Assembly (NCBI GenBank): GCA_018992685.1
Contig: JACVGT010000027.1
Coordinates: 1 to 43,932 of the forward strand
Origin: Theionarchaea archaeon
GTDB taxonomy: Archaea > Methanobacteriota_B > Thermococci > Methanofastidiosales > SZ-28-30
DNA: 43,932 nt
Direction: 5' to 3'
Shown here: one piece after another, positions 1,995 through 37,534 of the stretch
How the letters are laid out: every line of letters starts with the position of its first letter
How positions within the stretch are numbered: the first letter of the stretch is position 1
Position numbers and translations under genes: made by a program
Notes under the pieces: model-generated
What the model was told of the DNA's origin: nothing
Databases searched by the model: none
What the model saw: the letters and a program-made list of their open reading frames with translations, nothing else

Positions 1995-4900
1995 TCATCG
2001 CTCCTTGCTTAGGATTTTATATAGTGCGTACGTGCCCAATATGACTCCGCCTATAATCAACCCCGCTCCCACAGCTAAAAAAAGTAGGCCCACTACGGTG
2101 GCTATAGCCACACCCTCAGCCACACCTGCACTAAAAAGAGCTATACCAAGCCAAGCCGGTCCAATACCAAATATAACTGCTGTTACTGCACCTAAAGCTA
2201 ACAGCTCATCTTTATCAGATTCGAGGCTTGGTATCCCACCGAATCCCATGAGATTGAATCCTGCTTCAGCTAGAAGTAAGGAACTCAAGAGGCTTTCTTT
2301 TCTTTGTGTCAGGCTCTTCTCTTCAGCCTTCTCAAGTTCCTTTCTGAGCTTATCATGTTCTTTTTCTCTTGCCTTGTCTCTTGCTTTGTCTTCCCAGTCT
2401 CCGATATTTTCTCCTTTCTTTGAGTCTATTGTGACGTCACCTTCACTTGTGGGGATTGTAATAACTCCATTGCCTCCGTAGACAGGATCTCCGGTGATTT
2501 CCGGCTCATCTACGTCGCCTCCACCTTCGATGCAAGGTTCAGTCGGCTTGTAAGATTCTCCCCACGGATCCGTGTAACTCAACGGATTGTTCTGGCAATA
2601 TGCAAACCGATTCAGACTCTGTGGATTAGACACATGCCCTATGAGGGAATCTCTGGTTATGAACCGTCCTAGGTCAGGATCGTAATACCGGGCGCCATAG
2701 TAGTAAAGACCAGTCTCGTCCAATTCTTTTCCAGTAAATGTATAATACTCAGTCCCTTCTTGTGTACTGACCTCTCCAAAAGGACGATAGGCTACAGCGA
2801 CGATTATGTTTCTACTTTCATCTGTTGCGAGCCTAGTAGATCCTAGATGATCACCAGAATAGTAGAAAATGTTTGATTCTTCGTCAACAGTCGTTCTCTT
2901 TGCCAGTCTCCCTGTTGGCCCATAGATATAGCAGGCAGTACCAGTCGAAGTCATTTCGTACACAACATCCAATTTGGAATATATATAGGTTGTGGTTACA
3001 CTGTTTTCCGTTGCTTGGATTCTCCTGCCATCACCATCATATGCATATTCCCCTATAGTTTCTGAGTTCTCTTCCACTTCAGTTAACCTGTTGGCATAAT
3101 CATAGGTGTAGTCCCACGTGTCATTTCCCTTGGCTTTCTGTGTCCTGTTTCCATTGTCATCGTACGTGAAAGAAGTGCCATCTGATAATGCAGTCACTTC
3201 ATTCACGACGTTTACCGTGTATGTTACGCCATCCTTTCCTGTTCTATTCCCTGCTTTGTCATACGAGTAACTATGAGACCAGGAGTTGCAGCTAGCAGAG
3301 GTTAATCGATCCAGTCCATCGTAGCTATAAGATTCAGTATCAGAATGCCACGAGGAACTAGTATCTCTCCATCCATTCACGAGCTGGGTGATATTGCTGC
3401 TGTTGTCGTATGTGTAATCCAGATCCAAGTAGGAGGTTGCACCATTCTTGACATCAATGGCTGAGATCCTGTCTCGTGAATCATACGAGTAAGCGGCCTG
3501 TAGATCATTTCCGTAGTCGAACTGTGTCAACAGGCTTTCTGTATCATACTGGGTATTATCCATTATGATCTCATCATTAGAACCATCCACATACCTCTTA
3601 GTCTCCGTTATTCGATTCAAGTCATCATACGAGTATAGAATCTCCATGTCATCTGGATACGTCAAGGCGGTCAATCTGTTGGCAACATCATACTGGTAGG
3701 AGACCGCATAGCTACTCTGAGAAAGGTACCTGATCTCGCTGGTCATTCTATTCCACGCATCATAAGAGTAAGAAACATAGTCGCCCTGACTCAACGCATC
3801 ATCATCCATACGTATTCTGTTTGAATTCAAATCATAGGTGAATGAGACCGTAGACTGATCCTGGTATTCGATCTGAGTCATTCTGTAAATTGAATCGTAG
3901 GTATAGGCCGTTTCATTTCCGTTGCAGTCCGTAAAAGAGGCGATGTTACCCACGTTACCATATTCATATTCTTCGTAATCTGAGTCTGGGTACGTAGTCC
4001 TCGTCAACCCGAGCAGAGAAGTATATGTGTAGGTTGTGGTATGATTTTCAGCATCTGTGAAAGATAGCAGATGGCCTACTTCGTCATACTGGTAGGTGGT
4101 GGCAGCAAAAGAATCGGCAGCATACTCTTCCTCCACTTCCTCCAATCGATTCAACCAATCGTACCAGTAGATCCTGTCATATCCTCTCCCATTGGTGAAG
4201 GTAACCTTGTTATTGGTGTCATCGAATGAATAGTAAACTGAGGAGGAATCCGGGCATTGAATCTGAGTGCAGCGACCGAGAAAATCATAGGTATAGGTAT
4301 ACGAATCATTGCCAGGATCTGTAACACTTGCAATCAAATCATTGTACTGGTGTGTTCTCGAGGCAGTTGCATACAGCGTACCTGATCCATACACTCCTGT
4401 ATACCACTTGACATCTGTGAGCCGGCCCACTCTGTCGTAGTAGTATGTCACGTAATGTCTCAACTGATCAATGATAGTGATTGTCCTGTTGGTGTCATCA
4501 TACACAGCTTCCAAGTACGATCTCTGGGCCTGGCCAGATAGTAATGGAAACTCTTTCTTGGTAACCCTTCCCAACAGGTCATAGGTATAAAGGTAATCAT
4601 ATCCAGATTCTGCATCAACGCCTCTTGGTTCCTGTATGGAGGTAATCCATCCTCTGTAGGAGTCGTAGGTAGCCTTGGTGGCAATAGTATCCTGGCCCAC
4701 AGTGGCTGAGATTTCTGTCAAGTATGCGTAAGAATAGGTGGCAGAATAGGTCAAAGAGAGGGTATTGGATTCAGCATCAGTGACAGACGTGACATTTCCA
4801 TAGGTATCATACTGCATACTGGTGGTATAGGTGTCTGGTGAATTGTCCACAGGAACATACAATGTCCAGGAAAATTTGGTGTTCGGTGCAGAGGATTCAG

Positions 4901-7565
4901 TGAAGTATAATGTGTTTTCACCATTTGTCAAACTGGTAACAGCGACCTGGGCTGTTGTATTTGCCAGATTTGTAGAGACAGGTTTCCAGGCGGATCCATT
5001 TACATCATACTGGACCTGTGCAGGATACGCTTTCCAGTAAGCGGTCACTGTGAAACCATGCGACTGTTGGTTACACGAGGGATTTGTCGTGCAGCTTTGA
5101 TACCCCAGAGTGTTAGGATAGTGGGTAAAAGGTCCAATATAGGCCCAGTCCTGGTAGATATCCACATCGGGGAAAACACCACATGAATAGGTATAGTACG
5201 TCTTGTAATTGCTGGATTGCCAGCTACAGAGCGTCCAGGTGGCATTAGTGCAGTCCATCCCGTAATCTGGAGTGTAGGAATGTACTTCTGAATAGGTAGG
5301 ATCAGAGGCCAACCCAGTAATCTGTAATACAGCATTTCCAGCTACCGTATAACCTGTCAAATCAACGGAGAAAGAAGTACTGCTGGTGTTCTCGTTAAAA
5401 GTCCCGGAAAAGGTCTCGTATGAGGTGTAATCTCCAAACAGAGAGTCAGATTCCGTGGGATGGGCCTCCCCATCGTAAGTCACATATACTTCTCTCACAT
5501 AGGTATCATCCTGTTTTTCTGCCATGCCAATCAAGGCCGTATGCACAGAGGAGGGCACAGTACTATTGGAGAATTTATTGGTGAAGGTCTGTTCTATTGT
5601 ACCCGTATTGTCCATGAAGAATCCTGCATCACTGGTGTTGGCATAGGAGAAAAACTTCTCATGGCCTCCTGCATCTTTCGTATAGGTGATGTTCCCCCAG
5701 TTATCGTATGCGCAGTAGGTGGTGTATGAAAGCGTCGATCCATCATTATATACATTCAGCTGCGTAACTGCCTTTTGAGAATTGTAGGTGTATGTGTATT
5801 TTCTGATAGGTGTAGCTGATGCATTCTTAGTTGTCTGTTCCGTGACTAACCCACTACTATTTATGGTGAAGTGGTAGGAACCTTTCGCGACATCTGACTC
5901 ATTCTTTATGGTGGCTGCAGAAGATGTGATTGCTTGAAACGTTCCCGTGTAAGAGAAAGCTGTGTGGCGGACTTGATTCGTCTCATACACTCTCTGGTCA
6001 GTAACATAATACTTGTAGTAATCACTATCGGAGAACCTGTCGTACGTGTATGTCGTATACCCTGTAGTAGCATACTCTATCTTGGATAGCAGCCAATAGT
6101 TGTACCCACTGTTATAGTAGTAACTTGTTCTCCTGTTCAGAAAATCATCCATCCACTGCAAACACCCATTTCCATCATATGAGTATTCCAATTCTGCACT
6201 ATTATACGTGATCTTCCATAATCGACCACCGGAATGGCTGAGACTGACTGTCCGTCCAATAGTATCTGTTATGGTGGTCAGAGTGCCACTCTCATAGGTG
6301 AAATCTATGCTATTCTCATCAATATCTTGGATTTGAGTCAACTTCCCGGATGTATCAAATTCATAGACTGTCCCGCCGGCCATGGCCAATGTATATGTAT
6401 TATTGCCATTTTTCACCAGCGTGAAATGAGAACCAACATGATTCTCGAAGGTATTACTCACCCAGGAGATTTTGTATACGGTTCCTCCCCATAAGTGCAA
6501 GTACTTGGTACCTACATACGGGAAGTCTAGCGACCATCCTTTACCCAGATCCACAGGTGGAGCTTCATAATCATAGGGACTCGTTCCATAAAACACGGCG
6601 GGAGTCTGGTATACTCTAGTAATGTTAACATCCAGCCCCCGTCCCGGAATCACCAGATCCGTCTGGGTAATGGTCAGTAGCCCATTGGCAGGGTTAACGA
6701 ACTCCTTCAAATTCTTGAAATACTGCCCGTACGGTGTCAACCCGGAAGATTGCCAAGCATCTTCAAAGATCTGCATGGATGGGTCAATCACCACAGGGTA
6801 TTGGGCAGACTCTAGCCATTCTTGTCCTACAGCATCAATGACCTTATGCAGTTCATATCCTGTCTCCGTTTCAACTAGATCGTAATGAATATCAGTACAA
6901 ACTGAGTCTCCATCATCCTTCATGAAAGGAGGAAGTATTTCAACTACAGGGTTCCAGTCTGAAGAGAATAGTAATGATCCAGTCTCAGTGTACTCCGGTG
7001 TCATTCCATCCCAGGAGATCTCATATATGAATCGCTCGCACTCTTTAAACTCAGAAAGTATCAGGCTCTCTGTTAATAACGATGTATCTACCTCATATTC
7101 CATATCTACAGAATCAAATACACCAGAGACAGAAAGCTCATTATCCTCAGAATCACTCTCCCCAGTCTGCACTTCCTCAGAATCATTCTCCACCAATTCC
7201 AGCTCGATCCAGGCGTCTCCAATCTCCATCCTCATGGTTTGTCCATCGAAGAACACTGTGTAATATGGAGAATCTGCCATATACTCATAATCTTGGCTGC
7301 TGCTGGAGTGGACTTCTAATGGCTCATGACTGGGGGACTCAGTATATCCATAATTCTCTTCAATACCATAAACTGCATCCTGCAGTGTAACGTGCCGTAA
7401 TCTGTCAAGTGGACTCCCGGGCACAACTCCTTCAGAAGGTATATCCGTCATTCCAGCCAAGAGCTGGACATTAAATAGGAGACCCATAAAAAGAATGGCC
7501 CCAATACAAAAAACTCTAAAGATTCTGCAAACCTCATCCTTTGTACCCACATCTCTCATCCTCAT
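1995..7565 (-). CDS. Secreted RHS/YD-repeat protein with variable hydrophobic C-terminal tip, 1856 residues
   Basis: The start at 7565 is chosen because GGAGGT lies seven bases upstream; a longer frame extends 26 codons further but has no such site. Residues about 13-37 form a signal or membrane segment (FCIGAILFMGLLFNVQLLAG). An N-terminal domain of about 250 residues follows. Then comes the characteristic RHS entry sequence (NGLLTITQTDLVIPGRGLDV) and well over 1200 residues of YD repeats (YTYDLLGRV, YSYDGLDRL and similar). The RHS-associated core (GDHLGSTRLATD, TGKELDETGLYYYGARYYDPDLG) ends at the usual DPxG junction (DPWG). RHS shells enclose and deliver a C-terminal tip. Here the tip is 184 residues: an acidic linker, a charged coiled-coil-like stretch (KARDKAREKEHDKLRKELEK) and a strongly hydrophobic last 65 residues. 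No nuclease or deaminase motif is visible, so it could be pore-forming or simply a membrane anchor. Confidence 0.92.
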   Translation of the reverse strand: MRMRDVGTKDEVCRIFRVFCIGAILFMGLLFNVQLLAGMTDIPSEGVVPGSPLDRLRHVTLQDAVYGIEENYGYTESPSHEPLEVHSSSSQDYEYMADSPYYTVFFDGQTMRMEIGDAWIELELVENDSEEVQTGESDSEDNELSVSGVFDSVDMEYEVDTSLLTESLILSEFKECERFIYEISWDGMTPEYTETGSLLFSSDWNPVVEILPPFMKDDGDSVCTDIHYDLVETETGYELHKVIDAVGQEWLESAQYPVVIDPSMQIFEDAWQSSGLTPYGQYFKNLKEFVNPANGLLTITQTDLVIPGRGLDVNITRVYQTPAVFYGTSPYDYEAPPVDLGKGWSLDFPYVGTKYLHLWGGTVYKISWVSNTFENHVGSHFTLVKNGNNTYTLAMAGGTVYEFDTSGKLTQIQDIDENSIDFTYESGTLTTITDTIGRTVSLSHSGGRLWKITYNSAELEYSYDGNGCLQWMDDFLNRRTSYYYNSGYNYWLLSKIEYATTGYTTYTYDRFSDSDYYKYYVTDQRVYETNQVRHTAFSYTGTFQAITSSAATIKNESDVAKGSYHFTINSSGLVTEQTTKNASATPIRKYTYTYNSQKAVTQLNVYNDGSTLSYTTYCAYDNWGNITYTKDAGGHEKFFSYANTSDAGFFMDNTGTIEQTFTNKFSNSTVPSSVHTALIGMAEKQDDTYVREVYVTYDGEAHPTESDSLFGDYTSYETFSGTFNENTSSTSFSVDLTGYTVAGNAVLQITGLASDPTYSEVHSYTPDYGMDCTNATWTLCSWQSSNYKTYYTYSCGVFPDVDIYQDWAYIGPFTHYPNTLGYQSCTTNPSCNQQSHGFTVTAYWKAYPAQVQYDVNGSAWKPVSTNLANTTAQVAVTSLTNGENTLYFTESSAPNTKFSWTLYVPVDNSPDTYTTSMQYDTYGNVTSVTDAESNTLSLTYSATYSYAYLTEISATVGQDTIATKATYDSYRGWITSIQEPRGVDAESGYDYLYTYDLLGRVTKKEFPLLSGQAQRSYLEAVYDDTNRTITIIDQLRHYVTYYYDRVGRLTDVKWYTGVYGSGTLYATASRTHQYNDLIASVTDPGNDSYTYTYDFLGRCTQIQCPDSSSVYYSFDDTNNKVTFTNGRGYDRIYWYDWLNRLEEVEEEYAADSFAATTYQYDEVGHLLSFTDAENHTTTYTYTSLLGLTRTTYPDSDYEEYEYGNVGNIASFTDCNGNETAYTYDSIYRMTQIEYQDQSTVSFTYDLNSNRIRMDDDALSQGDYVSYSYDAWNRMTSEIRYLSQSSYAVSYQYDVANRLTALTYPDDMEILYSYDDLNRITETKRYVDGSNDEIIMDNTQYDTESLLTQFDYGNDLQAAYSYDSRDRISAIDVKNGATSYLDLDYTYDNSSNITQLVNGWRDTSSSWHSDTESYSYDGLDRLTSASCNSWSHSYSYDKAGNRTGKDGVTYTVNVVNEVTALSDGTSFTYDDNGNRTQKAKGNDTWDYTYDYANRLTEVEENSETIGEYAYDGDGRRIQATENSVTTTYIYSKLDVVYEMTSTGTACYIYGPTGRLAKRTTVDEESNIFYYSGDHLGSTRLATDESRNIIVAVAYRPFGEVSTQEGTEYYTFTGKELDETGLYYYGARYYDPDLGRFITRDSLIGHVSNPQSLNRFAYCQNNPLSYTDPWGESYKPTEPCIEGGGDVDEPEITGDPVYGGNGVITIPTSEGDVTIDSKKGENIGDWEDKARDKAREKEHDKLRKELEKAEEKSLTQRKESLLSSLLLAEAGFNLMGFGGIPSLESDKDELLALGAVTAVIFGIGPAWLGIALFSAGVAEGVAIATVVGLLFLAVGAGLIIGGVILGTYALYKILSKER

Positions 7566-7671
7566 GTTCCCAACCTCCAAAGCTTTGTACTGACTTCGCC
7601 GTCTGCATGTGCATACTTTTCGATCTGTAGACTTTGCCGTCAATACAGTTCAGCCACGGATATCTGTGCGA

Positions 7672-7974: not shown

Positions 7975-9339
7975 CTACATTCTCTGTCCCACAAAAAGAG
8001 GAGCCCCGTACTCCAGAAAAGCTCTGTACTTTTCACAGTATCCTTCAAAGAGCGTCCCCGATTGAAGGTATGCCTCATATGCACATCCTCCTCCACACAT
8101 CAGCGCCACGTCACATGTCCTGCATCGTGGAATAGACAACACATCTCTGTTCATCCAATCCTCAAACTTCTCATTGAATTTCAATTCCGGAATGAACTGC
8201 CCAACAGAAAAGGTCCTATCTCCCACGGCCCGGGGACAGCAATAAATGTCACCAAAAGGATCAAAAGAAAAAGTCTGAAAATGAGCAGAGCAATAGAAAG
8301 GTCGAGGCTGTAACTCCGTCCCCTGCAATATAGTCTGAGACAGATACCCTTCTACAAAGTACTCCCATGCGTAATGCATCACCTTGAAGAGAGAGGGTGA
8401 TTCCTTCCTCAGAGCCACAATCCTTTCTGCCATTTCAGAATAGGTCAAGAGACCTGGAGGAGTAGTATCCTTCCCAGGCAACACAGGTGTACAGGTAAAA
8501 GAAATATTCTTTCTGTTGACCCAGCCATGTTCTGTGACCCAGTCCCTAAAAGTGAGTAGTTCACCAATATTCTGTGCATCAACATTGATCCTCACTCCTA
8601 TGGGTATCCCGCTATCCAGGGCATCATCTATACCCTCCACTATTTTGAAGAAGGTACCTCCTCCGTCACTCCTCTTGCGGCGTGCATCATGGACATGTTG
8701 GCACCCATCAAGAGTCACGCCCAAGCCATCCACAGCATATTCCGAAAAGAGAGGAACAAATTCCTTGAGGTAATACCCATTCGTGTTGGCATGGAAGCTG
8801 AAGTCTCTCTCAGACCCTCTTTCCAGAATGTACGTCACGATAGAACGTGTAGAAGGGAGGAATGGCTCTCCTCCATAGAATGACATCCCCTCGACAGATT
8901 CCAGGGCAGGTATCTGCGTCATCGTCTTGAGAGCTGCATCCACAGTTTTCTCATCAATGACCACCCTCATGGTATCAGGTACAAACAGGTGGTCTGCCCA
9001 GCAGTAAGTACAGCGAAAATTGCACTGATAGGTTACAATGATGGCAGTCCGCGGATTTTGTGGTTTCTTCTGGTCTTCATATCTTTTGTTCATGAGTTCC
9101 TTTTCTTCTTCCTCTGTAAGGGTGGTGATGTACCCTTCATCTTTCAATTGAGATACAACAGCATCATTATCGACATCTGAATCAGTGGGGAATCTCGAGA
9201 GGACTTCCAGTTCCTCCCCACTCATAAGTGATGCATTTCCATACAGAGGATTGCAGACCAGGTATGACACCCCTCCTGCTGATGCGGGAAGTGGGATGAC
9301 AACAGTGTAGCTACTCTTCCGGAATGTGGATTCATTCAT
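7975..9339 (-). CDS. Radical SAM/SPASM peptide maturase, second of pair, 454 residues
   Basis: The radical SAM cluster motif CxxxCxxC is CNFRCTYC at residues 106-113, followed by GGEP (YGGEPFLP), typical of SAM binding. The C-terminal SPASM domain that holds auxiliary iron-sulfur clusters is present, with many cysteines (FYCSAHFQTF, YCCPRAVGD, RCRTCDVALMCGGGCAYE, FEGYC). SPASM enzymes commonly crosslink or otherwise modify side chains of ribosomal peptides; the family also includes anaerobic sulfatase-maturating enzymes, but no sulfatase is nearby. About 95 residues precede the cluster, as in maturases with an N-terminal peptide-binding region. The start at 9339 is preferred over 9372 because GGTGATC sits two bases before it, the same register used by other genes here. 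It lies 39 bases after a paralogue and in the same operon as a cysteine-rich small peptide. Confidence 0.9.
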   Translation of the reverse strand: MNESTFRKSSYTVVIPLPASAGGVSYLVCNPLYGNASLMSGEELEVLSRFPTDSDVDNDAVVSQLKDEGYITTLTEEEEKELMNKRYEDQKKPQNPRTAIIVTYQCNFRCTYCWADHLFVPDTMRVVIDEKTVDAALKTMTQIPALESVEGMSFYGGEPFLPSTRSIVTYILERGSERDFSFHANTNGYYLKEFVPLFSEYAVDGLGVTLDGCQHVHDARRKRSDGGGTFFKIVEGIDDALDSGIPIGVRINVDAQNIGELLTFRDWVTEHGWVNRKNISFTCTPVLPGKDTTPPGLLTYSEMAERIVALRKESPSLFKVMHYAWEYFVEGYLSQTILQGTELQPRPFYCSAHFQTFSFDPFGDIYCCPRAVGDRTFSVGQFIPELKFNEKFEDWMNRDVLSIPRCRTCDVALMCGGGCAYEAYLQSGTLFEGYCEKYRAFLEYGAPLFVGQRM

Positions 9340-9378
9340 ATGATCACCATTAGTAGTCTTATCACCTCTCATATCGTC

Positions 9379-10764
9379 TTAATACGTACGCTGTGCTGTA
9401 TTCTGTCCCATGCCTGGAGGCACCCATCCCTCGTTGAGGAACCTGCGATAGCAAAACGGAATGTACTCTTCCAGGACCTGTCTCGTGGGTTGACACACGG
9501 GAGCACTCACGGTGCCATGTAACATGTACGCATGATATGCACACCCTCCTCCACACACAAAGGCGTAGGTACACTCCCCGCATTCTTTTATGTTCATCAC
9601 CATTCTCTGCCTCCACACGTTGGAGTTCTCATTAAATTCAAGGGAAGGAATAAAGTGTCCCACACAATGTTCGTCTTCTCCCACAGCCTCCCAGCAGGGA
9701 TAGATATTACCATGAGGGTCAAAGAAAAGCTGGTTTGAATGGGCTCGACAGTTGTAGAACTGGGGAGACCACACCTCGTCCCTCAATGCAGACTCCAGGG
9801 CGTGAAACCCTGCAACACCTCGCTTGAAAACTTCCCAGATCCTGTCCCGGCCCCATAATGAAAGGAGATGCGTAATGGACTCTTCTCTCCTGTATGCTTT
9901 TGCATATGTTCCGCACCCGTAATTGAACACAGAGGCCAGATACGGTATGGTATAGGGATTGGTGTGCCACCCCTGTGCTTTCAGAAAGGCTGCCAGGGGT
10001 TCAAGGCAGTCAATATTGGATTTATCAACGTTGACTCTGATGTGTGTCATGATCTCATGCGAACTCAATATTTCAATGCCTTCCACAATGTCCTGGAAAG
10101 ATCCTTTGTTTCCCGGCCCTTTCCTGCGTGCATCATGAACCTCCTGTGTTCCGTCCAGTGTGATCTGAACACCGTGAATACGGTGGTTACACAAGAGGGA
10201 GAGGTACTGCGGGATATGTGTGCCATTGGTGACAAAGTAGTGGGTGTATCCTCGTCGTGACCCCTCTTTCATGATGTAGGCGATGAGCTCTCTGTTCTCT
10301 GGAAGAAGGGGTTCTCCCCCAAAGTAGATCAGGGGTTTCTTCTCAGAATTTCTGTCATCCAGTTCATCCACTGCTGCAAAGAACAGGTCAATCTCTTCAT
10401 AGGAAAGGGTCCTGGCAATCCACTCTTTACCTCTGGTGTGCAGGAGCTGTTCCCAGCAGTAGGTGCACCTCAAGTTGCACGTGTAGGTGGGGATAATGAT
10501 GTGTGTTCTGGTCTGCGAGAAGCGCTGGTGGAGACGACCGCAGAACTCTTCCATGTAGTTCAGTTCTTCCTCAGGCGATAAATCTATCAGGTGGCCCCTC
10601 TCTATGAGAAATTCATAAATCGGAGAATCTGGTGGGGGAAGACCATGCTGAACAAGCTCAACCACTTCTCTATCTACAAGATCAACTGCTCCGGTACGGG
10701 AATTGACCAGGAGGTACTGGTCTTCATCTATCTTGAGAGGGAAACTGTATCTGCTGATCTTCAA
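9379..10764 (-). CDS. Radical SAM/SPASM peptide maturase, first of pair, 461 residues
   Basis: It is a paralogue of the next gene. The radical SAM motif is CNLRCTYC at residues 96-103 with YFGGEPLLP. The SPASM cysteines appear as NCRAHSNQLFFDP, YPCWEAVGED, ECGECTYAFVCGGGCAYH and PVC. Both proteins share the DGxQxVHDARRK region (DGTQEVHDARRKG). The start codon is TTG: GAGGTGA lies in the usual position before it and there is no suitable ATG nearby. The first 80 residues (a beta-rich stretch with DQYLLVNSRTGAVDLVD, then helices) resemble the peptide-binding (RRE-like) N-terminal parts seen in many RiPP radical SAM enzymes, although I cannot prove that fold by eye. It follows the cysteine-rich precursor gene across a 165-base gap containing a hairpin, so it is the most likely first enzyme to act on that peptide. 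Confidence 0.9.
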   Translation of the reverse strand: MKISRYSFPLKIDEDQYLLVNSRTGAVDLVDREVVELVQHGLPPPDSPIYEFLIERGHLIDLSPEEELNYMEEFCGRLHQRFSQTRTHIIIPTYTCNLRCTYCWEQLLHTRGKEWIARTLSYEEIDLFFAAVDELDDRNSEKKPLIYFGGEPLLPENRELIAYIMKEGSRRGYTHYFVTNGTHIPQYLSLLCNHRIHGVQITLDGTQEVHDARRKGPGNKGSFQDIVEGIEILSSHEIMTHIRVNVDKSNIDCLEPLAAFLKAQGWHTNPYTIPYLASVFNYGCGTYAKAYRREESITHLLSLWGRDRIWEVFKRGVAGFHALESALRDEVWSPQFYNCRAHSNQLFFDPHGNIYPCWEAVGEDEHCVGHFIPSLEFNENSNVWRQRMVMNIKECGECTYAFVCGGGCAYHAYMLHGTVSAPVCQPTRQVLEEYIPFCYRRFLNEGWVPPGMGQNTAQRTY

Positions 10765-10879
10765 GAAGTCACCTCGACGTTATGATTCCAGGTTGGAACC
10801 CCGAGACAGGCACGCTCCAGACAACACATTCTCATCTCTCACTGGTCTTTTCACTCTCTTTTGGGAATCCGTGTCCTGA

Positions 10880-10908
10880 CCTGAACACGAGTACCTTCTC
10901 TGTTCAGG
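10880..10908 (-). other. Hairpin between precursor peptide and modifying enzymes
   Basis: CCTGAACA (10880-10887) pairs perfectly with TGTTCAGG (10901-10908), and inside it GAG pairs with CTC across a 6-base loop. On the minus strand it follows the peptide stop codon by 22 bases and precedes the first radical SAM gene. No oligo-T tract follows, so it is more likely a processing or mRNA-stability element than a full terminator. Such elements commonly let a precursor peptide be made in excess over its enzymes. Confidence 0.55.
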
Positions 10909-10929
10909 ACTGGGTTTCTCCTAGGTAAC

Positions 10930-11088
10930 CTAGCATATCAAGGTTCTGCAATAAAATGCACAGCAACAGCCACCACAGCCACAGACACCGTAGGGTGTAA
11001 CAATTATTTCACATAAGGAAGGGGACTCATTCATGTCTACTATGAGTACGTTCGTCCAGAGCTTCTTGTTCACTCGTAGCGCTTTCAT
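10930..11088 (-). CDS. Cysteine-rich small peptide, putative RiPP precursor, 52 residues
   Basis: The frame starts at an ATG preceded by a perfect GGAGGTGA seven bases upstream (measured from GGAGG) and ends at TAG. The N-terminal 25 residues are a basic, mostly Cys-free leader-like part (MKALRVNKKLW, then NVLIVDMNESPSL). The C-terminal part is packed with cysteine: C26, C36, C38, C41, C42, C43, C47 and C52, with the tail reading VCGCGGCCCAFYCRTLIC. Two SPASM radical SAM enzymes follow in the same direction. Known radical-SAM-modified Cys-rich peptides (sactipeptides, ranthipeptides, SCIFF) have thioether bridges from Cys to backbone or side-chain carbons, and this pattern would suit that chemistry. 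I do not recognise this sequence family. A metal-binding peptide is the main alternative. Its stop lies just upstream of a hairpin. Confidence 0.8.
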   Translation of the reverse strand: MKALRVNKKLWTNVLIVDMNESPSLCEIIVTPYGVCGCGGCCCAFYCRTLIC

Positions 11089-11249
11089 GGGCTCACCTCC
11101 ACTGTTTTCTCGATCTCTTTAGTTAAAAACTTTTGGGTTCTCTCTTCAATTTCCTTGCGTGTCTTGAACCAATCGAGACTTTCCGGGTTGTCACGAGATT
11201 GATTCTGTGTCTTTCCCTGCGCGCGGATTCGTTCTGCGTGTGATCTCAC
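11085..11249 (-). CDS. Small protein overlapping the precursor peptide start, 54 residues
   Basis: The frame opens with GTG about 11 bases after the transcription start predicted from the TTTATAAA box, and its TGA overlaps the ATG of the Cys-rich peptide (ATGA). This would give translational coupling. The product is hydrophilic and helical (SHAERIRAQGKTQN, LDWFKTRKEIEERTQKF, KEIEKTVEV) and has no cysteine. Coding-like composition extends a little upstream of the GTG, where no start codon exists. I do not recognise it. It may be a second peptide of the system, a chaperone, or the remnant end of a larger gene whose translation feeds the precursor. No SD is seen before the GTG. Confidence 0.5.
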   Translation of the reverse strand: MRSHAERIRAQGKTQNQSRDNPESLDWFKTRKEIEERTQKFLTKEIEKTVEVSP

Positions 11250-11280
11250 CGGATCGGGCAGAGGGTCAACAAAAGCAACA

Positions 11281-11288
11281 TTTATAAA
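11281..11288 (-). promoter_or_regulatory. TATA box of the Cys-rich peptide / radical SAM operon
   Basis: TTTATAAA, with T-rich and G-rich flanks, lies 32 bases before the 54-residue frame, which is the expected spacing for a short-leader archaeal transcript. The element is self-complementary, so it could also fire rightwards. The Mre11-like gene to the right begins 195 bases away, so its own promoter is probably nearer (weak AT-rich sequence around 11369). Confidence 0.6.
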
Positions 11289-31253: not shown

Positions 31254-32546
31254 TTAGATTTCACCTAGAAGCAGTGGTTTTTCCCCAATTCCTGCCTTGA
31301 ATGCAGCGTAGAATTCTTCCATTTCTTCTCTTTTCTTCTCTGCATGTTCCTGTCCCACGATCACTGATTTCTTGGCATCATCGAGTTCATCCAGATCGCT
31401 GGAGGGAGCGTACTGACTGTAGACGGGAGTTCCGGGATAGGGAGTCAGGACGGAAAAGAGTGCGTACGTGGGATTGATCTCTTTGATGAACGCTTTGGTT
31501 AACTCTATGTCGTGTGACGTTTCCACGGGAGCACCAACGATGAAATAAGCATGGGTTGCAACATTCATGTGGTGACACAGAGAGAAAACAGTTCTGCACT
31601 GGGCAAGCGTGAACCCCTTGTTGTACCAATCGATGATTTTCTTACTTCCCGATTCCACTCCAAACGCGATGCAGATGAGGCCTGATGACTTCATGAGTGA
31701 CAGCAGTTCGCTGTTCACTGATTCTACTCGCGCCTGGCATGCCCATTCCAGGTCGATTCTCTCTTTCTTAATTGTCCTGCAGATTTCTCTCACTCTTTTC
31801 CTGTCATGAACGAAAAGATCGTCTACAAACCAGACTCTGTCAAATCCCATTTCCTCTATGATCAGAAGCTCATCTGTCAGGTTCTTTGCAGACCGTGCTC
31901 TAAATTTCCTGCCAAATACTGTCTTTGAACAGAAGGAGCAGTGAAAGGGACATCCTCGTGAAGAGAGGACTGACGTGACTGTTTTTGGATAGGTTGATCT
32001 CCAGTGGTCCAAGTATCGAGCGATGGGTAGCTTTTCTCGTGCAGGGAAGGGCACACCGTCAACATCCGTAATGAGTGGCCGTTCTCCGGGGCACACTGTT
32101 CTCCCCTCCACATACGTGAAACTCCCTGGTACAGGGGGCATCTCTCCTGCTTCTATATGGCGAGCAATGTCAATAAAGGTCTCCTCACCCTCTCCCTGCA
32201 CCACATAGGTACATCTCTTGAGGAACAGTCCCGGATCCATGCTGCTGGGGCCCGGACCTCCAACGACAACCGGTATCCTGCGGTCTTTCATCTTTTCGGC
32301 AAGACTGAGCGCAGATTTTATCTGTCCAAAAGAAGCAGAAATACCCACCATGTCTGCATTGATGGAGGTAACCCTGGCTTCATACTGAGACTCTGTCAGA
32401 ATCGTACTGTCTATGACTTCTACTGTATGTCCCTCTCTTTCCAGCACTGCAGCCAGGTAGAGAATTCCCAGGGGTGGCCACAGCTCAGGATCTCCTCTGA
32501 AGCATCCTCCTACCCGTGAAGGTGGAAAGACCAGTAAAACTCTCAC
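31254..32546 (-). CDS. B12-binding radical SAM enzyme, third in PqqD operon, 430 residues
   Basis: An N-terminal cobalamin-binding-like Rossmann domain (VRVLLVFPPSRVGG, PPLGILYLAAVLEREGH, VVVGGPGPSS) is followed by a radical SAM domain with SSRGCPFHCSFC (cysteines 199, 203, 206) and the later GVESGSKKIIDWYNKG. No DxHxxG B12-histidine is visible, which is common in this class. Enzymes of this kind carry out methylations, ring contractions and other radical reactions. The GTG start is set by GGTGATC two bases upstream, and the preceding gene ends four bases before it. The product has a C-terminal helical extension of about 70 residues. It is one of four such paralogues in this region. Confidence 0.88.
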   Translation of the reverse strand: MRVLLVFPPSRVGGCFRGDPELWPPLGILYLAAVLEREGHTVEVIDSTILTESQYEARVTSINADMVGISASFGQIKSALSLAEKMKDRRIPVVVGGPGPSSMDPGLFLKRCTYVVQGEGEETFIDIARHIEAGEMPPVPGSFTYVEGRTVCPGERPLITDVDGVPFPAREKLPIARYLDHWRSTYPKTVTSVLSSRGCPFHCSFCSKTVFGRKFRARSAKNLTDELLIIEEMGFDRVWFVDDLFVHDRKRVREICRTIKKERIDLEWACQARVESVNSELLSLMKSSGLICIAFGVESGSKKIIDWYNKGFTLAQCRTVFSLCHHMNVATHAYFIVGAPVETSHDIELTKAFIKEINPTYALFSVLTPYPGTPVYSQYAPSSDLDELDDAKKSVIVGQEHAEKKREEMEEFYAAFKAGIGEKPLLLGEI

Positions 32547-32550
32547 GCGA

Positions 32551-33879
32551 TCACCATTGGTCCTCCAGAGCAAAATCAGGATCGCTCTCTTTCTTGAAAT
32601 CAGTGAACCGGATATATGCTCTTTCAATCATGGCTTCTGCTTCTGCGCTGGAAAAATGTGGATGTTCAAACACCAGGGACATCCTGTTATCAAATGTGTC
32701 AAATCCCTCGGTCACAGTCTCGACTTCATGTGATAATCGGGTTCCTGGAATCGGAATGGGAAGTGAGAACTCCACGCTATCAGGGTCAATAGACATGGCA
32801 AATCGTATCGTATCTTCAACAGTTTCAGGTGTGTCACGGGGAAATCCCAGTATGAAATAGGCGCACCGCTTGATTCCAGCCTTCCTGGTCATTCTGAAAG
32901 CCTTTTTCACTGCCTCTAAATCGTGCCCTTTTCCGATATACCTGAGAATATCAGGGTTTCCAGATTCCACCCCGAACCCAATCCAGGTGCATCCTGCTTT
33001 CCTCATGGCTTCCAGCATGTCTCCGTCAATCGTATCAACGCGGCTCTCACAGTACCATTCCAGGTCGGGATGCTCTTTCCGGAGCTCCGCGCACAGGTCG
33101 AGAACACGCTTTCTATCCAGCGTGAACAAATCATCAGCAAACCACAATTTGTCGATTCCCCTCCCTTCCAGGTATGAAATCTCAGGCATGATATTCTCTA
33201 CTGATCGTGCCCTGTAGAGGGTGCCAAAAACGCTCTTATCACAGAAATTGCATTTATGAGGACATCCTCTTGAGGAAAGCAGTGATGTGCAGGTAAATTG
33301 GAAGTATTCTTTCCAAACAGCCATGTACTTTTCAAAAATGAAGTTATCCCTGTCCGGGAACGGGATTGAGTCAACATCTTCGATAATGGTAGGAGGGCCA
33401 TGGTGTACGCCATGTTCTTTCCAGACCAGGTTTGGGATTGCTGAATCAGCAGGCACGGTACAGTCATCGGATGCCTCCAGACATTCTGCTAGCACGGTGA
33501 TGGCTCTTTCACCTTCTCCTGCCACGAGGAAATCGACATCATCACAGGTTATCAGCTGGGGGTAGCATGATGGCAGTGGGCCACCGATAACCACGGGCAG
33601 CGACTGCTCTTTGAGCGTTCTGCAGGTTTCAAGCAAGGCGGAATAATGCAGGAGAGTAGAATACACTCCTGCCAGATCAAAGTCCCTGCCTTTACAGAAT
33701 GATTTCAAATCCTTCTGGAATGTCCCGTCGAAAACTGAAACAGAATGCCCCTGTTCAGAGAGAGCAGCAGAAATGTACAGAATTCCCAGTGGAGGGAAGG
33801 GAGCTTGCGTTGGGACAGGGTCAAACACCAGAGGTTTCCGCGGAGCATCGAGAGGAGGAACCACAAGGAGGATGTTCAT
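32551..33879 (-). CDS. B12-binding radical SAM enzyme, second in PqqD operon, 442 residues
   Basis: The architecture is as in its neighbours: cobalamin-binding-like domain (MNILLVVPPLDAPRKP, PPLGILYISAALSEQGH, VVIGGPLPS), then radical SAM with SSRGCPHKCNFC (cysteines 206, 210, 213), WFADDLFTLDRKR and GVESGNPDILRYIGKG. The start at 33879 is the ATG that gives the conserved N-terminus; the open frame extends 25 codons further. The gap to the upstream gene is four bases and to the downstream gene four bases, so all are translated from one message. It is most like the third gene (31254-32546), with shared SSRGCP and FRARS/YRARS segments, and the pair probably arose by duplication. Confidence 0.88.
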   Translation of the reverse strand: MNILLVVPPLDAPRKPLVFDPVPTQAPFPPLGILYISAALSEQGHSVSVFDGTFQKDLKSFCKGRDFDLAGVYSTLLHYSALLETCRTLKEQSLPVVIGGPLPSCYPQLITCDDVDFLVAGEGERAITVLAECLEASDDCTVPADSAIPNLVWKEHGVHHGPPTIIEDVDSIPFPDRDNFIFEKYMAVWKEYFQFTCTSLLSSRGCPHKCNFCDKSVFGTLYRARSVENIMPEISYLEGRGIDKLWFADDLFTLDRKRVLDLCAELRKEHPDLEWYCESRVDTIDGDMLEAMRKAGCTWIGFGVESGNPDILRYIGKGHDLEAVKKAFRMTRKAGIKRCAYFILGFPRDTPETVEDTIRFAMSIDPDSVEFSLPIPIPGTRLSHEVETVTEGFDTFDNRMSLVFEHPHFSSAEAEAMIERAYIRFTDFKKESDPDFALEDQW

Positions 33880-33883
33880 CTCG

Positions 33884-35191
33884 TCACTTCCGGGGCCGTG
33901 AAAGACATGCAGCACAGAATTCCAGATACAGTTCGTGGAGCCTGTCCTTGGCAATGTGCTCTGTTACCATGATGGGCTTATACCCCTGGTAATCCTCCCA
34001 GTTCTTGTACATGCCCTGGTGGACGCCCACATCTCCATCTTCTATCATTTTTTCAAGTTCAGTCCCTGGAAAGGGAATAGGGAACTTGCCATACGCTATG
34101 AGGTTAAGCCCGAATTCTTTTCTCAAATGTTTGACCAGGTTAATGGACTTTTCAATGTCTCCTTCTGTTTCCCAAGGAAATCCAAGTATGAATCCCACCA
34201 ATATCTGGTCGATACCAGCTGAGAACGCTTTTTCAATAGCTTTTATACCTGCCTGGACTGTAGTCCCCTTTTTCACGTGATCCAGGTTATCCTGTGATCC
34301 TGTTTCCAGTCCATAGTATACTGCGTAGCATCCTGCTCTTTTCAATTCTCTGAGCAAGTCTGTGTCAATGGTATCCACCCGGGTTTCACAATTCCAATCA
34401 ATATCCAGGCCTTCTTCCCGTATCAGTGTGCAGATTTTCAATGCGCGTTTCCTGTTGAGCGTGAAGGTGTCATCCCCGACCAGGATCTTCTTCTCAGGAT
34501 ACAGGTCATGTACGTATCTCAGTTCCTGCACAACGTTTTCTGCAGATCTGAACCGATACTGCCTGAACATCCTGCGGGTGGAACAGAAGATACATTTGTG
34601 GGCACATCCCCTGCTGGTGTTAATTGCCACCATACCGTACTCAGGATAGTTGCCCAAAGGGAAGAGATCATGTGCAGGAAAGGGGAGCGCATCCAAATCA
34701 GAAACAAGGGGGGCATCCTCAGTCCGCACAAGAGACGTATGACGATATGTCAACCCCCTGATTGGGCGGGGATCGTGCTGCTTCTCAAGGCAGTCCAGCA
34801 GCTCAACGATGGTGTGTTCTCCCTCGTTTCTCACCACGTAGTCCACACACTCCTGTGAAGCTGCATCGAAATCTTCAAAAGTGGCATGGATACCACCCAG
34901 GATCGTCGTGACAGTAGGATCACACTGCTTACACGCAGTGAGGGCTCTCAGTGCAGGCCGATATCCCACAGTAGCCACAGAACACCCCACCACGTCAGGC
35001 TTGAATTTCTTCATGACACCTTTCACTGATTCTGGAGTCAACCCCTGAGAGGGCATGTCCAAAACGTCAATGGTATGTCCCGCCTCCCGCAGAACTGCAG
35101 CAATGTAGGCAAGTCCGATCGGGGTGGAATTTAGCCAATCAGAGTCGTGGGAAGAGTAGGGCCGTGGAGGTTGTATGAGAAGAACTCTCAT
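33884..35191 (-). CDS. B12-binding radical SAM enzyme, first in PqqD operon, 435 residues
   Basis: It begins MRVLLIQPPRPYSSHDSDW with PIGLAYIAAVLREAGH and ILGGIHATF in the cobalamin-binding-like domain, then TSRGCAHKCIFC (cysteines 196, 200, 203), FVGDDTFTLNRKR-type (LVGDDTFTLNRKRA) and GLETGSQDNLDHVKKG in the radical SAM domain. It follows the PqqD-like gene by 13 bases and so is the enzyme most likely to be handed a peptide by it. The start is the ATG at 35191 (AGGGA upstream). The reaction is unknown. Confidence 0.88.
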   Translation of the reverse strand: MRVLLIQPPRPYSSHDSDWLNSTPIGLAYIAAVLREAGHTIDVLDMPSQGLTPESVKGVMKKFKPDVVGCSVATVGYRPALRALTACKQCDPTVTTILGGIHATFEDFDAASQECVDYVVRNEGEHTIVELLDCLEKQHDPRPIRGLTYRHTSLVRTEDAPLVSDLDALPFPAHDLFPLGNYPEYGMVAINTSRGCAHKCIFCSTRRMFRQYRFRSAENVVQELRYVHDLYPEKKILVGDDTFTLNRKRALKICTLIREEGLDIDWNCETRVDTIDTDLLRELKRAGCYAVYYGLETGSQDNLDHVKKGTTVQAGIKAIEKAFSAGIDQILVGFILGFPWETEGDIEKSINLVKHLRKEFGLNLIAYGKFPIPFPGTELEKMIEDGDVGVHQGMYKNWEDYQGYKPIMVTEHIAKDRLHELYLEFCAACLSRPRK

Positions 35192-35204
35192 TGTATCCCT
35201 GTCC

Positions 35205-35450
35205 CTACTCTTCTCCAAGCCCGATAGTTCCAACCTTTTCTACAAATTCCCTTACACTGGTAGTGGCTGCTTCCTTGTCCACATCGAAAATCTTCATCAG
35301 TTCTGCTACAATCTCCTGTTCCGGCTTTTCCAGAAGCTTCCAGACGATTGCACCACTCTTGTTAGTCTTGTAGATCTTACCATCTGCAGGATCAAACACC
35401 AAAACGTTTTCATCCTGATCTCTCCAAACGATATCTGGATTTAGTTTCAT
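35205..35450 (-). CDS. PqqD-like peptide chaperone (RiPP recognition element), 81 residues
   Basis: The small protein reads LNPDIVWRDQDENVLVFDP, then GKIYKTNKSGAIVWKLLEKP, then helices (EIVAELMKIFDVDKEAATTSVREFVEKV). This is the standard PqqD/RRE layout: a three-stranded sheet with the 'N.sG..iW.lL' motif (NKSGAIVWKLL, residues about 37-47) followed by helices. These proteins bind leader peptides and present them to radical SAM enzymes, as in PQQ biosynthesis. I start at the ATG at 35450; in-frame TTG/GTG codons lie upstream at 35471 and 35459. It is first in an operon with three B12-binding radical SAM genes, and marks that operon as probably acting on a ribosomal peptide. Confidence 0.85.
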   Translation of the reverse strand: MKLNPDIVWRDQDENVLVFDPADGKIYKTNKSGAIVWKLLEKPEQEIVAELMKIFDVDKEAATTSVREFVEKVGTIGLGEE

Positions 35451-35549: not shown

Positions 35550-36245
35550 GTGCGTATGATATTTATTTCAGCTCACCCGGACGATGCATTCTTAGGAGCA
35601 GGAGGTGTCATTCTCAAACACAGGGCACTGGAAGATGATATTCTCCTGATCAATGTGACGTCAGCGGAGAAAGGGTTGCCATTTGTGGAAGAGGGCTTTT
35701 TGAGAGCAGTGAGAGAGAAGGAGCAGGACATCTTATGCAGGAACCTCGGCATTGCTGTAGAATTCCTTCATGTACCAGATTTGAAAATACAATATGCGGG
35801 AGAAGAACTGGTGAACCACCTCATCCTGAAAATCCGGCAGTTCACTCCAGATCTGGTGTTCACTCACTACCCTGAAGATATTCATCCAGACCACAGATCA
35901 GTGAGTTCTGTTGTGAAAACAGCATGTCATCTCAGTACATTCCCCAAGGTGTGTCCTGATGCACCCACGCACACGATTTCCAACCTGTTCATGTGGGAAG
36001 AATACAGCACCCGGGACTTCAGACCCATGGTGTATGTTGATATAACCTCAGAATATGAGCAGAAAAAGGAGACGCTCAGAGAATACAAGACGCAATACCC
36101 CATTTTGAGGAATGTGTTTTCTCATGCTGAATTGCAGCCCAGGGTTCGCGGAATTGAGGCCGGATGTGAGTACGCAGAAGCATTTCATTGTCCATGGCCT
36201 GTGACTGCAGGCGATTTGTCTCAATTCAGAAGGAGGCGTACGTGA
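35550..36245 (+). CDS. PIG-L/LmbE-family deacetylase-like enzyme, 231 residues
   Basis: A GTG start lies seven bases after GGAGG; an ATG two codons later is an alternative. The zinc motif reads SAHPDDAFLGAGG (residues 8-20), where the usual AHPDDE has Ala instead of Glu; HPDHRSV (about 112-118) provides the other ligand. PIG-L/LmbE enzymes remove acetyl groups from N-acetylglucosamine attached to lipids or small thiols (mycothiol, bacillithiol) or from natural products. Here it is the first gene of an operon with a B12-binding radical SAM enzyme and a glycosyltransferase, so an amino-sugar intermediate is likely. It ends GTGA-overlapped with the next gene. Confidence 0.82.
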   Translation: MRMIFISAHPDDAFLGAGGVILKHRALEDDILLINVTSAEKGLPFVEEGFLRAVREKEQDILCRNLGIAVEFLHVPDLKIQYAGEELVNHLILKIRQFTPDLVFTHYPEDIHPDHRSVSSVVKTACHLSTFPKVCPDAPTHTISNLFMWEEYSTRDFRPMVYVDITSEYEQKKETLREYKTQYPILRNVFSHAELQPRVRGIEAGCEYAEAFHCPWPVTAGDLSQFRRRRT

Positions 36246-37534
36246 ACATGATTGTGCTGATAAATCCACCTTACGTTTCAGAATGGGGCCCTCGAGTCAA
36301 CATAGGTCTTGGGTATGTGGCAGGAGTCCTGCGGGAGCATGGAATAGAGGTCAAAATCATAGACGCAACAGCAAGAAAGACGTCAGTTGATGACATCGTG
36401 GGTCGTGTTTCTTCTCTTGATCCTGATATTGTGGGAGTGTCAAGTATTGCTGCAACATACCCTGTGTCGCTGGACATTTTGAAAGCAGTGAAGAATCGTC
36501 TCTCTGTATTCACTGTTATGGGGGGATTGATGCCCACGTATCTGGACATGCAGACTGCTGGACTGGAGTATGTGGATGCGGTGGTCAGGGGAGAAGGAGA
36601 ATACACTTTTCTGGAGCTTGTAAGATCATATGCTCAAGGGACGTATACTGCCACCCAGGGCGTTACCTGCAAGAACCATGGAACTGTTGTCAGAAATCCA
36701 GATAGACCACTCATTGAGGATTTAGACACTTTGCCTTTTCCTGCCTATGATTTATTTCCCACAAAAGAGCTCATGCAGCAATCAATTCCCAAGAATGCTG
36801 CAGTCATGTCCACAAGCCGTGGATGTCCCTACAACTGTAAATTCTGTTCAATGAACACATTTTTCAGGAGAAAATGGAGGGGAAGGAGTGCCGTAAATGT
36901 CTTTGAGGAAATGAAAGTCCTGCGCTACGAATATGGGGTTGAAGAGCTGCAGATTGTGGATGAGCTCTTCACGTTTGACATGAAGCGAGCGGAACAGATT
37001 TCAGATTTTCTCATTGAAGACGAGACAGAACTACGGTGGATTTGTGAATCACGGGTAGATAGGCTTTCTGAGAACCTTCTGGAGAAGATGAAGAAAGCTG
37101 GCTGTTATGCTGTGTGCCTTGGGGTGGAGAGTGGTGTTCAGTCCATCTTGGACAGGGTGGGCAAAGGGATTGATCTCCACCAGGTAGAACATGCAGTGCA
37201 AGCGTGCAAGAGAGTAGGCATCAAAGCCATTGGTTCCTTTATCATAGGTCTTCCCTCAGAAACGGAAGGCACGGCAAGGCAGACGCTTGAGTTTATCAAA
37301 CGTCTGGACTTTGATCGAGTTATCATACACAATTTGAATCCATATCCTGGCTCTGAAATATATGAAAATCCGGAAGAATACGGAATTACTATTGTCAATA
37401 AGCAGTTCTCCACATACCATTTTTTTGCTCCTGTCTGCGAGACAGACGGGTTCTCCATAAAGCAGCAGGCACATCTATGGCTGGATATTCTCTGTGATCC
37501 GTTTTTTGTAAAGAGAGGGATTACCATTCCCTAG
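36242..37534 (+). CDS. B12-binding radical SAM enzyme, fourth paralogue, 430 residues
   Basis: It is of the same family as the three enzymes on the other strand: MIVLINPPYVSEWGPR, VNIGLGYVAGVLREHG, VMGGLMPTYLD, then TSRGCPYNCKFC (cysteines near 195, 199, 202), EELQIVDELFTFDMKR and GVESGVQSILDRVGKG. The GTG at 36242 overlaps the stop of the PIG-L gene (GTGA) with AGGAGG just before; the ATG at 36248 is the alternative. Its position in the PIG-L/glycosyltransferase operon rather than the PqqD operon suggests that it acts at a later, sugar-bearing stage, though that is a guess. Confidence 0.88.
   Translation: MNMIVLINPPYVSEWGPRVNIGLGYVAGVLREHGIEVKIIDATARKTSVDDIVGRVSSLDPDIVGVSSIAATYPVSLDILKAVKNRLSVFTVMGGLMPTYLDMQTAGLEYVDAVVRGEGEYTFLELVRSYAQGTYTATQGVTCKNHGTVVRNPDRPLIEDLDTLPFPAYDLFPTKELMQQSIPKNAAVMSTSRGCPYNCKFCSMNTFFRRKWRGRSAVNVFEEMKVLRYEYGVEELQIVDELFTFDMKRAEQISDFLIEDETELRWICESRVDRLSENLLEKMKKAGCYAVCLGVESGVQSILDRVGKGIDLHQVEHAVQACKRVGIKAIGSFIIGLPSETEGTARQTLEFIKRLDFDRVIIHNLNPYPGSEIYENPEEYGITIVNKQFSTYHFFAPVCETDGFSIKQQAHLWLDILCDPFFVKRGITIP

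Follow-up and report, generated by a model that had tools for sequence, protein, structure and literature searches.

Does the small operon described here make a new kind of modified peptide in an archaeon, and if so, by what chemistry? The operon lies in a 43,932-nucleotide (nt) stretch of DNA from a Theionarchaea archaeon (contig JACVGT010000027.1 of assembly GCA_018992685.1; hereafter, the window). On the minus strand, a gene for a 52-amino-acid peptide is followed by genes for two radical S-adenosylmethionine (SAM) enzymes, rSAM-A and rSAM-B (A and B for short). The first-pass annotation, made from the DNA alone, had proposed a locus for a ribosomally synthesized and post-translationally modified peptide (RiPP). 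We favor the view that this is a new archaeal family of cysteine-rich RiPPs whose core is modified, most likely with thioether cross-links, by two enzymes that resemble CteB. We put the probability of this at about 0.6.

The window's genome (G000) is 3.03 Mb in 45 contigs. We compared it with a sister genome from the same genus of Theionarchaea, the metagenome bin G001. The features of the operon are as follows.

11280 to 11288, minus strand: putative archaeal TATA box TTTATAAAT, 200 nt upstream of the peptide's ATG
11093 to 11100, minus strand: strong Shine-Dalgarno sequence GGAGGTGA, just upstream of the peptide's ATG; kept in the sister genome
10930 to 11088, minus strand: precursor peptide, 52 amino acids, MKALRVNKKLWTNVLIVDMNESPSLCEIIVTPYGVCGCGGCCCAFYCRTLIC, with leader MKALRVNKKLWTNVLIVDMNESPS and Cys/Gly core LCEIIVTPYGVCGCGGCCCAFYCRTLIC (putative boundary)
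10769 to 10775, minus strand: Shine-Dalgarno sequence GAGGTGA of rSAM-A, which serves a TTG start; kept in the sister genome
9379 to 10764, minus strand: rSAM-A, 461 amino acids, with a TTG start that is likewise conserved in the sister genome
9343 to 9348, minus strand: likely Shine-Dalgarno sequence GGTGAT of rSAM-B, upstream of the preferred ATG at 9339
7975 to 9372, minus strand: rSAM-B, 465 amino acids as an open reading frame (ORF) or 454 from the likely start at 9339; PF04055 and SPASM domains

The peptide and both enzymes are conserved in the sister genome

The peptide has eight cysteines (positions 26, 36, 38, 41, 42, 43, 47, and 52), and as the first-pass annotation had noticed, they are all in the second half and the gene has a strong Shine-Dalgarno sequence. 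The annotation had also suggested looking in relatives for a conserved small Cys-rich frame beside homologous enzyme pairs. This is what we found: the sister genome has the same three genes in the order peptide-A-B, beside the same divergent sbcD/sbcC-like pair. Identity between the orthologs is 76% for the peptide, 80% for rSAM-A, and 79% for rSAM-B. A scan of named genome contigs gave one Theionarchaeal record, and the rest were only distant relatives.

All three genes are under purifying selection, with ratios of nonsynonymous to synonymous substitution rates (dN/dS) of 0.18 for the peptide, 0.12 for rSAM-A, and 0.13 for rSAM-B. In the peptide gene, the differences fall at codon positions 1, 2, and 3 in the ratio 11/4/21. 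The leader seems to be more tightly constrained than the core (dN/dS of 0.12 vs. 0.25, from small numbers). The sister peptide also has an in-frame deletion of 6 nt (two codons, Cys-Gly).

In the sister genome, the TATA element is 124 nt upstream, within a block that is common to both genomes (AGAAGTTTATAAATGTTGCTT). The first-pass annotation had extended the locus from 7975 to 11249, and the three genes stand but the outer end does not. A 54-amino-acid frame at 11085-11249, considered as a second peptide, is not conserved, and much of this stretch is absent from the sister genome, so we interpret it as 5' leader and promoter sequence outside the system. We found no TATA-like box in the 165-nt gap between the peptide gene and rSAM-A. 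A hairpin in that gap (CCTGAACA...TGTTCAGG) was considered as an attenuator and set aside, as it is not kept in the sister genome. The ATG at 9339 is the likely true start of rSAM-B because the sister protein opens with MNESTARKSS and because residues 6-13 of the structural model have a predicted local distance difference test (pLDDT) score below 50.

A family of precursors with a constant leader and variable cores

We used the window peptide alone as the query against both whole genomes (E up to 10), which avoids the bias of looking beside enzymes. Besides the peptide itself and its ortholog, there were six matches, and five of these six are within 3 kb of a SPASM gene. Such neighborhoods make up 7.2% of the DNA (binomial P ~ 1e-5). 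Related peptides in the sister genome are on contigs C13 (three), C30, and C97. One of the five matches beside SPASM genes is a second precursor in the window's genome (G000 C10:14016, in locus L010, 2963-9152), with a tryptophan-containing leader. It ends in NPTGKCGGCACGCFVVNCMGLSAC (tail KCGGCACGCFVVNCMGLSAC), and after it come four radical SAM proteins, three of them A/B-type enzymes.

The leaders in this family follow the pattern MKA-x-x-x-NKK-x-W-x-[ND], some of them more loosely, while the cores vary (for instance, GCGGGGCYFSPCPPWIWPCNFF and GCGGSCCSCFDYTCDHW; variants in the sister genome include CGGCCC and GCGGGGCYFSPC). Cysteine, together with glycine, is the most enriched and most repeatedly kept core residue, and the number and spacing of cysteines differ among paralogs whose leader stays the same. 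A constant leader with a variable Gly/Cys core is the signature of a RiPP precursor family. The system thus has an encoded precursor with a conserved leader, a variable core, and adjoining tailoring enzymes, which supports the annotation's reading of the locus.

The family does not correspond to any curated one. The first-pass annotation had found no resemblance to SCIFF peptides, and indeed the window peptide has no match to Pfam models (E up to 1) or to NCBIfam models (E up to 10), SCIFF included. Its six relatives have no credible match to the curated precursor models in NCBIfam or Pfam. When a profile built from seven members was run against 113 other genomes of the class, no confident copy turned up; the weak matches (E of 0.03 and worse, many with stops) were dismissed as noise.

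A separate candidate in the sister genome, at about 10945-11097 on the plus strand of locus L064 (contig C140), has a Cys/Gly-rich tail GYCCGGCGSGCSFAGATGCK after a KVWKG leader and lies opposite a B-like enzyme. The ATG near its Shine-Dalgarno sequence is in another frame, which could reflect an assembly error or an unusual start.

Both enzymes carry a full set of cluster ligands

The annotation was also correct in placing two paralogous SPASM radical SAM enzymes downstream on the same strand. A and B are deep paralogs (33% identical). Both match the radical SAM domain (PF04055; 60 bits for A and 67 for B) and the SPASM domain (TIGR04085; 57.9 and 48.5 bits, with a cut-off of 27). In rSAM-A, the ligands of the radical SAM cluster are C96, C100, and C103, and the SPASM cysteines are C339, C357, C395, C398, C404, C408, and C424. 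In rSAM-B, these are C117, C121, and C124, and C361, C379, C417, C420, C426, C430, and C446. Both proteins therefore have the CX3CX2C motif (in CNLRCTYC or CNFRCTYC) and all seven SPASM cysteines (CX12GX4C, CX2CX5CX3C, and a last cysteine). The ten cluster-ligating cysteines are complete in A, in B, and in 27 of 28 aligned members of their clan; the remaining member has nine. There is no further cysteine between the first two SPASM cysteines of rSAM-A, so auxiliary cluster I probably has three cysteine ligands and an open site, by analogy to CteB.

By sequence, no solved structure is closer than that of CteB (5wgg; E = 1e-25 for A and 1e-17 for B). Nevertheless, A and B are outside of every curated maturase family, as they score far below each cut-off. 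For A and B respectively, the scores are 89.6 and 87.5 bits against TIGR03974 (the SCIFF maturase; cut-off 425), 134.7 and 108.6 bits against NF047865 (the PapB ranthipeptide maturase; cut-off 340), 172.8 and 97.1 bits against NF038107 (CefB; cut-off 600), and 135.9 and 120 bits against TIGR04463 (rSAM_vs_C_rich; cut-off 525). A TAG within the match to the sister's rSAM-B had hinted at pyrrolysine or a pseudogene. This stop, however, lies upstream, and the frame reads through without interruption from its ATG.

Predicted structures resemble CteB over their full length

The AlphaFold models have a mean pLDDT of 89.0 for A and 89.6 for B. When we compared folds, CteB was the top match for both. 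For A, 401 residues aligned (Z = 26.8, 3.9 Å, residues 4-447 of the model); for B, 401 residues aligned as well (Z = 26.6, 4.3 Å, residues 21-464). TigE also aligned over the full length, N-terminal domain included (Z = 22.8 over 402 residues at 4.3 Å, and Z = 21.4 over 399 residues at 4.5 Å, for the two models). On the catalytic part, the Z-scores of anSME, which oxidizes cysteine and forms no cross-link, were only about 1 below those of CteB for A as well as for B.

At the N-terminus, both full-length models have three strands followed by helices, and CteB aligns from residue 4 of A and residue 21 of B. These are predicted to be RiPP recognition elements (RREs), at about residues 1-82 of rSAM-A and 24-101 of rSAM-B. 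The PqqD domain is the classic leader-binding RRE. Neither A nor B has a match to the PqqD model of Pfam; other clusters of the same enzyme clan carry stand-alone PqqD-domain proteins. The separate PqqD proteins of these sister clusters lend support to the proposed pairing of leader with RRE. In CteB, the RRE holds the leader, and an auxiliary cluster has an open site that faces the substrate (PMC8326336).

A proposed scheme for thioether formation and its rivals

In the scheme that we infer, the peptide is translated and its leader (x-NKK-x-W-x-[ND]) would be held by the RRE at the N-terminus of each enzyme. A and B would be maturases of the radical SAM/SPASM type that resemble CteB and contain three Fe-S clusters. 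At the SAM cluster, a 5'-deoxyadenosyl radical would form and abstract hydrogen from a core residue that serves as acceptor. Of the auxiliary clusters, the one closest to the active site has only three obvious cysteine ligands and probably holds the thiolate of a donor cysteine, which would then bond to the carbon radical to give a thioether. The product would have several thioether bridges among the cysteines of VCGCGGCCCAFYCRTLIC, each with a mass change of -2 Da. A and B might act on different groups of cysteines or as one complex. An unlinked protease would then remove the leader, and we presume that the mature peptide has a biological role.

That A and B form thioethers is suggested by their family and fold, and several points weigh against it. 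With a single Glu and no Asp, the core lacks the CX3D pattern that PapB substrates have. Consecutive cysteines (CCC) may be hard to bridge singly. Since anSME scores only about 1 Z unit below CteB, the reaction cannot be read from the fold. Genes for a peptidase or an exporter are absent from the operon. The comparison within the genus covered only two genomes, one of them a metagenome bin.

How the work might be divided between A and B is a sub-question that is compatible with thioether formation. One enzyme could be catalytic on the core while the other is needed as its partner, which is the arrangement in thuricin CD. In favor of this, the sister genome has an A-like enzyme (56% identical) in a cluster that lacks a B-like one, and a B-like enzyme (571 bits against B) in a cluster that lacks an A-like one. 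Each of these adjoins a different SPASM protein, here called T, whose best NCBIfam matches, under cut-off, are the ACGX-system and heme b synthase models. This suggests that modules have been reshuffled. However, A and B both keep all ten ligating cysteines and are under similar purifying selection, so a noncatalytic partner seems somewhat unlikely.

The locus could also be a RiPP operon without thioethers. The enzymes might instead oxidize cysteine or another residue (as anSME does), form C-C bonds or cyclopropyl rings, or epimerize residues, which would leave the cysteines free for disulfides or metal. The closeness of anSME and the full-length alignment of TigE are compatible with this, as are the NCBIfam scores: these are all well short of the cut-offs, and the families that A and B come nearest to differ in their chemistry. 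On the other hand, Cys and Gly are repeatedly kept in the cores across the precursor family, and CteB, a thioether former, is the best full-length match by both sequence and fold. We consider it unlikely that thioethers are absent.

It is quite improbable that the small gene encodes a metallothionein-like or Fe-S-carrying protein and just happens to adjoin unrelated radical SAM genes. The CGCGGCCC clusters could bind metal, and an operon that lacks an exporter would suit such a protein, but the leader is constant while the number and spacing of cysteines vary, a Cys-Gly loss is tolerated in frame between orthologs, and five of the six peptide-only matches are beside SPASM genes. As for a chance ORF, the frame is short and of odd composition, but its dN/dS of 0.18, in-frame indel, conserved Shine-Dalgarno sequence, and seven further family members over two genomes make this explanation negligible.

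In a more ambitious form of the main reading, the system represents a new Theionarchaeal class of RiPP. This class would combine a shared Trp leader, many Gly/Cys-dense cores, and a lineage-specific CteB-like clan that acts in pairs or trios to make densely bridged peptides (consecutive cysteines included) with a novel bond pattern, in a genus whose set of SPASM peptide maturases has grown several-fold relative to its relatives. We offer this tentatively, at a little under even odds.

SPASM genes are expanded in the genus

The window's genome has 35 SPASM (TIGR04085) genes and the sister genome has 67, while 113 other genomes of the class have 0-11. These counts point to an unusually large and unstudied peptide chemistry in an uncultured archaeon. 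Radical SAM RiPP biosynthesis is already known; what is new is this family of precursors, the clan of enzymes, and the size of the SPASM set. A 2025 survey predicted radical SAM RiPPs in archaea, and the validated archaeal RiPP products that it reports or cites are haloarchaeal lanthipeptides (PMC12144867). In literature that mentions Theionarchaea alongside radical SAM or secondary metabolites, the titles and the beginnings of the abstracts give no sign of the peptide-A-B system. With only three genes in a compact arrangement, a clear precursor and leader, and natural variants in the genus, this system opens the radical SAM peptide chemistry of archaea to direct tests.

Other clusters in the two genomes contain further candidates. 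Precursor-like ORFs made up of perfect 9-residue repeats (CALEVQPTF) are found in the window's genome (L015, 9883-10110, minus strand; contig C2) and in the sister genome (L065, 10549-10725, minus strand; contig C128), with six cysteines in one genome and four in the other. They have strong Shine-Dalgarno sequences, two radical SAM enzymes of the A/B clan follow immediately downstream, and we view them as candidate Cys RiPPs with repeat cores. In the sister genome, a 79-amino-acid ORF with three spaced FCATLP repeats (L067, 956-1195, plus strand; contig C132; Shine-Dalgarno sequence GGAGGTGAT) directly precedes an A/B-clan SPASM enzyme. Also in the sister genome, three small ORFs around a SPASM enzyme (L068, 6790-8772, plus strand; contig C71) have a common MKCEKVE leader and a CPP-x-PC-x-CxNI tail, and this looks like another multi-precursor RiPP cluster. 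The cluster on C10 of the window's genome (L010) also holds a 616-amino-acid ORF related to the T-type SPASM proteins.

Elsewhere in the window, a gene for a 1882-amino-acid RHS/YD-repeat protein (1995-7643, minus strand) is directly downstream of rSAM-B. We rejected it as a member of the operon, as it is absent from the orthologous place in the sister genome, where an OLD-TOPRIM-like gene follows instead. A separate cluster has three B12-binding-type radical SAM genes in a row (31254-35233, minus strand; HpnJ/BchE/ApyD-like) and a fourth at 36188-37534 (plus strand). It includes a gene that appears from its sequence to be deacetylase-like (35550-36245) and a glycosyltransferase-like gene (37543-38631).

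Comparison with known systems

The closest parallel is SCIFF and its maturase (CteA and CteB of Clostridium thermocellum), in which a Cys-rich precursor of about 50 amino acids is beside an RRE-containing radical SAM-SPASM maturase. Among solved structures, CteB comes closest to A and B in both sequence and fold. However, SCIFF has one enzyme instead of two, and the precursor described here has no NCBIfam match and has CGCGGCCC in its core.

PapA/PapB (freyrasin) and the CefB-type Cys-repeat peptides also involve SPASM maturases of Cys-rich peptides, and these are among the top-scoring families for A and B, but the CX3D motif and the pattern of a cysteine at every fifth position are missing here. 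TIGR04463 is the best NCBIfam match of B and the second-best of A, and its name implies a C-rich target. Again, the scores are below the cut-off, so A and B are not members.

The SynChlorMet cassette (ScmE and ScmF), as it occurs in locus L083 of Methanogenium, is similar in being archaeal and in having two SPASM enzymes with a small Cys-rich ORF nearby. Unlike A and B, ScmE and ScmF are about 370 amino acids long and exceed the cut-offs of the models made for them (579 and 539 bits); with the ScmE model, A reaches 76 bits, where the cut-off is 400. In Methanogenium sp. MK-MG, the ScmE/ScmF pair and the small ORF occupy 9175-12168 of L083. The ORF is divergently oriented and Cys-rich, with 63 amino acids and a YEKPEL leader, and it has no NCBIfam match.

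Two radical SAM maturases in one RiPP pathway are also found for ruminococcin C (RumMC1 and RumMC2; PMC8188230) and for thuricin CD (TrnC and TrnD; PMC12093266). These are bacterial antibiotics, and TrnC and TrnD serve two precursors. In contrast, the system described here has a single and far more Cys-dense precursor, and it is from an archaeon.

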